Origin: Pseudomonadota bacterium
GTDB taxonomy: Bacteria > Pseudomonadota > Gammaproteobacteria > Burkholderiales > Thiobacillaceae
Length of the DNA: 64,000 nt
Direction: 5' to 3'
Assembly (NCBI GenBank): GCA_021802945.1
Contig: JAJZRE010000001.1
Location: forward strand, 1 to 64,000
Position 1 is the stretch's first letter. The number at the start of each line of letters is the position of its first letter. Below are positions 11,116-60,569 of this stretch, in pieces. Under the pieces are notes generated by a model, which did no database searches, was not told the DNA's origin, and saw nothing but the letters and a program-made list of their open reading frames with translations. The position numbers were made by a program, and so were the translations under genes.

Positions 11116-12397
11116 GATGTCATTCGTTCCTGGGCATGGGGGACTTCGAGAAACAGGCTGCAGCAGTCGCGCCCGCCGTTCTTTGCCTGGTAGAGGGCCT
11201 TGTCGGCGGCGTAATAGAGCGCCTGCGGCGCTTTCATGGAATGGTTGTACTGCGCGATCCCGACGCTGAGGCTGATGTTCAGGTGGGTCCCTTCGTATTC
11301 GAACGGGTGTGCCCGCACACTTTCCAGAAAAATCTCGACGAACATTCTGGCCTGCTCGCTATTCGTGTGATACAGCACGATAGCGAATTCGTCCCCACCG
11401 AGGCGCGCCGGCAAATCGGATTTGCGGACGTGCAGGCGCATCAGGGTGGCGATATCGCGCAGCACCGCATCGCCCGCGCCGTGGCCATGGCTGTCGTTGA
11501 TCCGCTTGAAGTGGTCGATATCGAACAGCACCAGCGTGATCTCTTCCGCATAGCGCTCGGACTGATGAAACATCCGCGACAGGGTTTCGTCGAATTTGCG
11601 GCGATTGGGCAACTCGGTCAGCCAGTCGGTCGTCGCCATGGTGCTGAGCAGGTCGAGCGCTTGCTCGAGTTCCCGGGTTCGCCCCCCAACTGAACGTTCT
11701 TCTCCCGCAACTCCTGGTTGGCAAAGTCGATCTTGCTGCGCAGCTTTTCGTGATAACTGGCCAGCGACTTGTTCATGGTATTGAATACCGACACCAGCCG
11801 CCCGATCTCGTCCCTGCTCTTCACTTCCAGATCGCGGGCGACGAACGAGCCGCCCTTTTCAGCGGCTTCTTCCATGGCCGTCGTCAGCTTGCTGATCGGC
11901 GAGACAATGCCCCTCGCGGTAAAGAAATAGACGATCAGCCCGAGACTCGCGCCAAAAATGATCTGTTCGGCAACAATCCGCCAATAGAGCGCGTCGAGTG
12001 CCTTTTCCAGCGCATCGGTCGAAATATCGACGGTCACGCCGCCGATATTCCGGCCGTTGAAAACGATGGGCGCCTCGAAGCGCTTGTAGGTTCCGCCTTC
12101 ATTCCCGTGAGCCTGGGTCATCACGCGACCGTTCTGGTTGCGGATGACGACGCGGATCACATTGGCCTGCCGCGCAACATTGGCGGCGAGGATTTCCAGG
12201 TTGCCATAATCGTATCCGGCAACCAGGGACGCAGCGCCGGAGGCGGTGGCATTGGCCACGCTCTGACCCGACTTGCCGATCAGTTCGCTGAGCGAGCCAC
12301 GCTCGTTCTGGACGCGAACCACGCTGATCGCGGCCGACGTGATCAGCACGCCTGTCATGACATAGCCGATAAGTTTGCTGCTCAAACCAACCTGCAA
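11112..12397 (-). pseudogene. HAMP-domain membrane sensor/GGDEF diguanylate cyclase split by a frameshift
   Basis: ORF 11618..12397 (TM, sensor, HAMP, coiled coil ...FANQELREKNVQLGG) and ORF 11112..11639 (TDWLTELPNRRKF...ARLGGDEFAIV) join as ...NVQLGGRTRELEQALDLLSTMATTDWLTELPNRRKF if one G is added to the G6 tract at 11682-11687. Confidence 0.75.
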
Positions 12398-58729: not shown

Positions 58730-59794
<1,065 letters not shown>

Positions 59795-59822
59795 CTACAA
59801 GCGGACGGTCTCCGTATCGTCT

Positions 59823-59905
59823 CCCGCTTCTCCTCCCTGAGCGGGATGCCTTAATCCCCTTAAGGCATTTTTAGCCCCGACCCCTCCCTTGGTCGGGGCT
59901 TTTTT
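59823..59905 (+). ncRNA. candidate sRNA 3' region: three consecutive hairpins with C-rich loops, the last two followed by T-tracts
   Basis: CCCGCT-tctcctccctg-AGCGGG; ATGCCTTAA-tcccc-TTAAGGCATtttt; GCCCCGACC-cctccctt-GGTCGGGGCtttttt. T-tracts on the + strand while both flanking genes are on -. Confidence 0.5.
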
Positions 59906-59942
59906 ATTGGACAGCTTGATGGGCAGCGCCGGCCCGCCGAGG

Positions 59943-60569
59943 CTATCCGGCATCCTGAGGATGCGCCTGCCCGGCCCGGGCAAGCCAGCCTTCGACCACG
60001 GCCGCGGCTTCTTCGGTGCCCAGTCGCGAGAGGCTTGAAAACAGCTGCACCGTGACGTGCTCCAACGCTGCGAGTTCCTGCTTGACGCGGCGCAGCGTCA
60101 GCGCCTTCTCGCTGTTGGACAGCTTGTCGGCTTTTGACAACAGAATATGCACCGGCTTGCCGGTAGGGGTAAACCAGTCGAGCATCTGCCTGTCCAGCGG
60201 CGTGAGCGGATGGCGTGCATCCATGATCAGCACCATGCCCGCCAGCGCCTCGCGTTCCTGCAGGTAGCGCGACAGCAGGCCTTCCCACTTCGCCTTCACC
60301 TCTGGCGGAACTTTTGCGTAGCCATAGCCCGGCAGGTCGACCAGAAAAGTGCCGGCATCCAGTTCGAAAAAATTGATAAGCTGTGTCCGTCCCGGCGTCT
60401 TGGACGTAAACGCCAGGCGATTTTTACGCGTCAACAGATTGATTGCACTCGACTTTCCAGCATTGGAACGCCCGGCGAACGCGATTTCGGCGCGGCTGCT
60501 GGGCAAATCGCGCAACTGGGCGACCGAGGTATGGAATTGGGCGCGATTGAGCACGGGCTTGGCAGTCAT
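59943..60569 (-). CDS. engB: ribosome biogenesis GTP-binding protein YihA/YsxC
   Basis: [61 protein letters not shown]. Confidence 0.96.

Follow-up and report, generated by a model that had tools for sequence, protein, structure and literature searches.

What is encoded on the plus strand between hemB and engB, two genes that both lie on the minus strand? The window, meaning the whole 64 kb stretch of DNA that was analysed, carries at this place three consecutive hairpins with C-rich loops. The original prediction read them as an independent small RNA (sRNA) whose loops could pair with Shine-Dalgarno (SD) sequences, and it assigned the RNA to no family. Three questions follow from this: which RNA it is, what might switch it on, and what it might do in the cell.

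A family can in fact be named. With cmscan, positions 59820-59907 match the Rfam family RF02837, "anti-hemB", over the full model (1-81) at 76 bits, far over the cut-off of 49.5 (E = 5e-16), and this is the only Rfam match within the window. The likeness to CcsR/cuckoo RNAs that had been suggested is unsupported and unneeded: those RNAs are stem-loops with a CCUCCUCCC motif in alphaproteobacterial tandem clusters, and no CcsR family is among the weak Rfam matches. A covariance-model search of relatives, which had been proposed as a check, found RF02837 over the cut-off in 190 of 299 sampled Burkholderiales genomes. The carriers include Thiobacillus, Burkholderia, Paraburkholderia, Pandoraea, Methylovorus and Noviherbaspirillum, and in the Thiobacillus loci hairpins 2 and 3 are nearly letter-identical to those of the window, which makes a Thiobacillus-like source organism probable. 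Three Burkholderiales genomes hold four to six matches each, one of them on two contigs, which suggests an expansion of the family.

The Burkholderia cenocepacia homologue, ncS04, is a proven transcript of 105 nt, with a mapped start, a 3' end determined by RACE and a Northern signal (PMC5688073), which upholds the idea of an independent plus-strand sRNA with C-rich anti-SD loops. It did not change significantly over seven conditions (PMC5688073), and its binding by Hfq is reported there at second hand, from Ramos et al. 2013. Expression of an anti-hemB-type RNA is established, then, in Burkholderia, a genus other than that of the window, for which the transcript is a predicted one. Judged by its sequence and predicted fold, the window RNA is genuine: it is a small regulatory RNA, of the trans-acting type, and belongs to the catalogued anti-hemB family.

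The stems and loops of the three hairpins at 59823-59905 were checked in the sequence and are as first described (Table 1). The hairpins stand where they had been placed; the extent was slightly short, with a start now predicted near 59803. Likewise the sRNA with its C-rich loops stands as a feature, and a further conserved hairpin at the 5' end and a promoter had been missed. The plus orientation is borne out by the two minus-strand neighbours and by an intrinsic-terminator scan, in which the sole terminator-like site in 59700-60000 is on the plus strand.

Table 1. Features of the anti-hemB locus, in positions of the window
Feature	Position	Strand	Basis and remarks
hemB ORF	58730..59767	-	ORF list; sRNA divergent; true start may be ORF-internal
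-35 box GGAACT, sigma-E/RpoE (ECF) type	59768..59773	+	family-wide motif
-10 box TCTCT (family consensus TCTNA)	59792..59796	+	19 bases after GAAC
anti-hemB sRNA, predicted transcript of about 103 nt	59803..59905	+	RF02837 match; 5' end inferred from promoter
5' hairpin GGACGGU/AUCGUCU	59803..59822	+	outside the Rfam model and the original prediction; 93.2% of cells paired
Hairpin 1	59823..59845	+	stem CCCGCU/AGCGGG, loop UCUCCUCCCUG; 99.6% of cells paired
Hairpin 1 loop UCUCCUCCCUG	59829..59839	+	Shine-Dalgarno-complementary
Hairpin 2	59846..59868	+	stem AUGCCUUAA/UUAAGGCAU, loop UCCCC, then UUUUU; 93.6% paired; two-sided changes in 7/8 pairs
Hairpin 3 stem-loop	59873-59900	+	stem AGCCCCGACC/GGUCGGGGCU, loop CCUCCCUU; two-sided changes in 6/7 pairs
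Hairpin 3 with T-tract, intrinsic terminator	59873..59905	+	terminator scan
engB	59943..60569	-	ORF list; convergent with sRNA

Conservation was evaluated over about 190 genomic loci overall, with 107 Burkholderiales loci extended upstream as far as the predicted start. The structure was read from 47 sequences that had been aligned by sequence alone. In the resulting four-helix structure 95.1% of cells are paired, against 86.4% in shuffles, a percentage somewhat favoured by reading the structure from the alignment's own members, which does not explain the covariation. Two-sided changes occur in 21 of 28 pairs (9.7 in shuffles), and the covariation score is 0.306, where shuffles give 0.144 and sliding the structure by 1-3 columns gives no more than 0.078; none of 500 shuffles reached the observed value of any of these measures. 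All seven pairs of the 5' hairpin covary, and the 5' part folds with at least four pairs in 104 of 107 loci, against 53 (maximum 65) when shuffled. Hairpin 1 is nearly invariant, its stem and its loop CCUCCCUG both being constrained in sequence; CUCC in this loop is invariant in the alignment, and most of CCUCCCUGAG is conserved at 90% or more. The hairpins are conserved between species, as the covariation over 47 sequences bears out, and this covariation, the Rfam E value and a folding z of -3.2 for a 131-nt stretch place them beyond chance.

About 50 nt ahead of hairpin 1, on the sRNA strand and at a fixed spacing, the Burkholderiales loci carry GGAACTT-N16/17-TCTNA, the promoter consensus for ECF sigma factors of the sigma-E/AlgU type. 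GAAC falls within -85 to -15 in 95 of 107 loci (shuffled mean 31). The strict two-box motif is present in 72 of the 107, where dinucleotide shuffles give a mean of 0.68 (maximum 4) and the reverse strand gives 1; the loci are not independent trials, given the kinship of the genomes, though dozens of families are covered. Of 94 scorable loci, 93 have a GAAC-to-TC spacing of 18 or 19, a count slightly favoured by the small preference for 18/19 with which the -10 was picked. Conservation falls on GAAC in the -35 box and TC in the -10 box, with nearly random bases around and between the boxes.

Several observations count against this promoter as a sigma-E promoter. In the window the -35 box and the spacing fit, and the -10 sequence TCTCT is degenerate against the consensus. 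The strict motif is missing from about one third of the Burkholderiales loci, and a named sample rich in Burkholderiaceae has it in only 32 of 119. Genome-wide, the motif alone is not predictive, as a search of the whole source genome with the sigma-E consensus gave 11 matches, against 17 for a control pattern.

The factor itself is encoded in the source genome: rpoE was found there (TIGR02939, 314.6 bits) and over the cut-off in 29 of 30 other genomes, and an hfq gene is present in the source genome as well. Of 30 genomes, 23 have the box GAACT[TA]-N15-17-GTC[TA] ahead of rpoE, where shuffles give 0.03, by a post-hoc pattern that was fixed after inspection and run with shuffle and reverse-strand controls. 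An earlier pattern that required a final A in the -10 had given 2 of 30; the boxes present end in GTCTNT, and that of the source genome is GTGAACTTTTCC..GCTCACA at -88. A box ahead of rpoE is expected from sigma-E autoregulation. Altogether this suggests that sigma-E, the factor of the cell-envelope stress response, turns on the anti-hemB sRNA.

The same RNA could instead be driven constitutively by sigma-70, tuning translation by SD pairing with no link to envelope stress, in which case GGAACTT would be some other element. Burkholderia lends itself to this explanation, because ncS04 was unchanged in the conditions tested in B. cenocepacia and because Burkholderia loci have an extended -10-like sequence, TGGTATAT(C/G)AT, and no GGAACTT box. 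Burkholderia sensu stricto has lost the -35 box and carries a TGGTATATGAT-like element in its place; Paraburkholderia and Pandoraea have intermediate GAAACTT...TCATA forms. The unchanged level of ncS04 also weighs against control by sigma-E, although it comes from a genus without the box, and this lack is itself consistent with a constitutive ncS04. The -10 of several families, CTATCTT or CTATCAT, would be compatible with sigma-70. On the other side, GAAC and TC are conserved among neighbouring bases that are nearly random, the boxes recur far beyond Burkholderiales and ahead of rpoE, and no sigma-70-like promoter was found in the region of the sRNA in the window. We consider sigma-70 control of the window RNA unlikely.

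Homologues in two families, f18 (five loci) and f49 (three loci), are mostly without a sigma-E-type box. The members of f18 have a different upstream sequence in common, TGTCTTGGACATA, and promoter replacement may thus have happened repeatedly.

Does the association with this promoter hold outside Burkholderiales? Of 274 genomes sampled from the class, 124 gave RF02837 matches with E <= 0.001, a number that includes chance matches, since 3 of 14 control genomes also match; 14 of the sampled genomes and none of the controls exceed the cut-off. The best 80 non-Burkholderiales loci were then chosen by the RNA model only. The GAAC-N-TC promoter, in a pattern slightly different from the Burkholderiales one, is present in 66 of these 80, where shuffles give 3.3 and the reverse strand gives 3; its most stringent form is present in 44, against 0.07 in shuffles. 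engB lies within 1.3 kb in 54 and is immediately downstream and convergent in 46, polA adjoins 47, and 35 have both genes: in 31 polA is upstream and co-directional with engB downstream and convergent, and in 4 more both genes are in the opposite orientation. The motif CCUCCCU (CCTCCCT) occurs in 59, and at least three C-runs in 79. The loci had been selected without regard to neighbourhood or promoter, and both therefore confirm that even the weak matches are largely real relatives. The window copy has kept engB and has hemB where these loci have polA. The comparison over all loci suggests that the anti-hemB sRNA belongs to one locus that encodes C-rich-loop RNAs in many proteobacteria. In several of the non-Burkholderiales genomes, RF02837-like RNAs stand in tandem, two to four in a row, about 150-330 bp from start to start.

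Within Burkholderiales, hemB is upstream and divergent in 80 of 108 loci and engB downstream and convergent in 78, and the placing seen in the window, between engB and hemB and divergent from hemB, is repeated in 73. In another 16 loci engB is upstream on the same strand as the sRNA and hemB was not found; judged by these loci, the linkage of the sRNA to engB outlives the change in gene order. Such neighbourhoods bear on whether the element acts in cis, as an antisense or divergent RNA controlling hemB or as a terminator of engB read-through. The family name suggests control of hemB, which the sRNA adjoins, and a read-through mRNA from engB to hemB would be fully complementary to it. Yet the sRNA is divergent from hemB and does not overlap the hemB ORF, and its T-tracts serve the plus strand only. 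Structure and promoter persist in the 16 loci that are co-directional downstream of engB, and also in the best 80 non-Burkholderiales loci, none of which has hemB beside it. Control of hemB in cis was rejected on the orientation and on the absence of hemB as a neighbour in other orders, and we regard a cis-acting element of either kind as very unlikely.

The explanation that we hold to be probable is that of a four-hairpin RF02837 sRNA of about 103 nt, transcribed by RpoE, whose anti-SD loops block G-rich ribosome-binding sites under envelope stress. Envelope stress would free RpoE (sigma-E), the RpoE polymerase would start transcription at about 59803, and the last hairpin would end the transcript at about 59905. 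The C-rich loops, chiefly CCUCCCUG of hairpin 1 aided by loops 2 and 3, would pair with G-rich SD sequences, probably with the help of Hfq. Ribosome binding would be blocked, and a share of the cell's proteins, with envelope proteins as the most plausible ones, would be turned down. There are precedents for such pairing: the C-rich loops of the Xanthomonas RNA sX13 act on G-rich RBS motifs (PMC3771888), and in Bordetella RIL-seq showed pairing in vivo between SD-like motifs and the C/T-rich seeds of CT_433 and CT_521 (PMC12235514). As sX13 works without Hfq (PMC3771888), a need for Hfq may not be a general trait.

Targets of loop 1 were sought with CAGGGAGG, the complement of 8 nt in it. This sequence stands ahead of an ATG nine times in the source genome, and one of the nine is a FadL-type outer-membrane protein: the SD sequence of this FadL/OmpP1-type gene (contig C16, 20790-20806) is perfectly complementary to the loop, and the sister species has only AGGGAG. 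This pairing is not conserved, as the FadL genes of 20 related genomes show only ordinary SD sequences. The same search in 15 other genomes returned mostly unrelated or spurious ORFs and no conserved target. Target prediction with the anti-SD loop, as originally proposed, thus gave nine matches in the source genome and none conserved in relatives, which counts against the explanation given above.

Titration of a protein or of ribosomal RNA by the C-rich loops, in place of pairing with many mRNAs, seems highly improbable. Hairpin 1 hardly varies in either stem or loop, beyond the need of a simple anti-SD seed, but an invariant anti-SD is expected anyway because SD sequences do not change, and related C-rich-loop RNAs pair with SD-like motifs.

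As judged by its match to the model, the window RNA is a new member of a known, catalogued family, RF02837. In the open-access literature (subscription journals lay mostly outside the search, and priority is uncertain) we found no description for anti-hemB of the sigma-E promoter, the 5' hairpin or the polA/engB link. The family has had no function assigned so far, and the sigma-E promoter gives it a testable one. No widely conserved sRNA comparable to MicA/RybB was known for the envelope-stress arm of betaproteobacteria. CT_532 of Bordetella, which has been proposed as a MicA homologue, was weighed as a counterpart and rejected, as it is RpoE-independent and at a different locus.

Among known systems, ncS04/RF02837 is like the window RNA in sequence, three-hairpin structure, length (105 nt measured, 103 predicted) and place between engB and hemB. 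It differs in that the window copy and most of the order have a sigma-E-type box and Burkholderia sensu stricto does not, and the Rfam model omits the 5' hairpin. The double-hairpin toxic sRNAs of RF02278 share CU-rich anti-SD loops and a terminator but have two hairpins and another locus, and their model gives the window RNA 27 bits against a cut-off of 50; the alphaproteobacterial ar14 model gives 28.5 against 58.8. The source genome has an RF02278 "Betaproteobacteria toxic small RNA" of its own (51.2 bits; locus L002, 1501-1568, minus strand, which is contig C69 at about 11776-11852), with a CU-rich anti-SD and a sigma-70-like TTGACA...GATTAT upstream. A second RF02837 match in this genome, 25.6 bits on contig C69, is this same RNA and was rejected as a paralogue.

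ErsA of Pseudomonas aeruginosa lies at the polA-engB locus (PMC8575079), as the non-Burkholderiales homologues do. It has a sigma-22/AlgU-dependent promoter, is linked to Hfq and represses the porin OprD. It differs in its 132 nt and its U-rich unstructured domain, and its likeness to anti-hemB is one of locus and reported properties; in the sole CrcZ-positive genome no such RNA was found beside engB.

Spot 42 (spf) of E. coli has the gene order polA-spf-yihA(engB), with the engB convergence of the non-Burkholderiales homologues and a similar terminator. It is without the C-rich loop 1, its known regulation is by cAMP-CRP, and its model RF00021 gives the window RNA 13.8 bits against 80.

sX13 (RF02232) has three stem-loops with C-rich loops and lies downstream of polA; through these loops it represses mRNAs that carry a G-rich motif close to the start codon or in the ribosome-binding site (PMC3771888). 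It differs in being independent of Hfq and in that an engB neighbour is not reported, and RF02232 scores 24.3 bits on the window RNA against a gathering score of 50. Its authors pointed out that Spot 42 and alpha-r7 share this locus, and raised the question of whether RNAs of this kind occur there in further bacteria (PMC3771888). The question of C-rich-loop sRNAs at the polA locus elsewhere is now answered by dozens of cases, most of them with a sigma-E-type promoter. The polA/engB link proposes a common origin for RNAs that now stand under separate names. We would give an even chance to the view that anti-hemB, ErsA, sX13 and the newly found RNAs descend from one ancestral sigma-E-driven anti-SD sRNA at polA/engB, across much of the gamma- and betaproteobacteria, with Spot 42 perhaps an offshoot rewired to catabolite control and Burkholderia a lineage in which the RNA came under a constitutive promoter.
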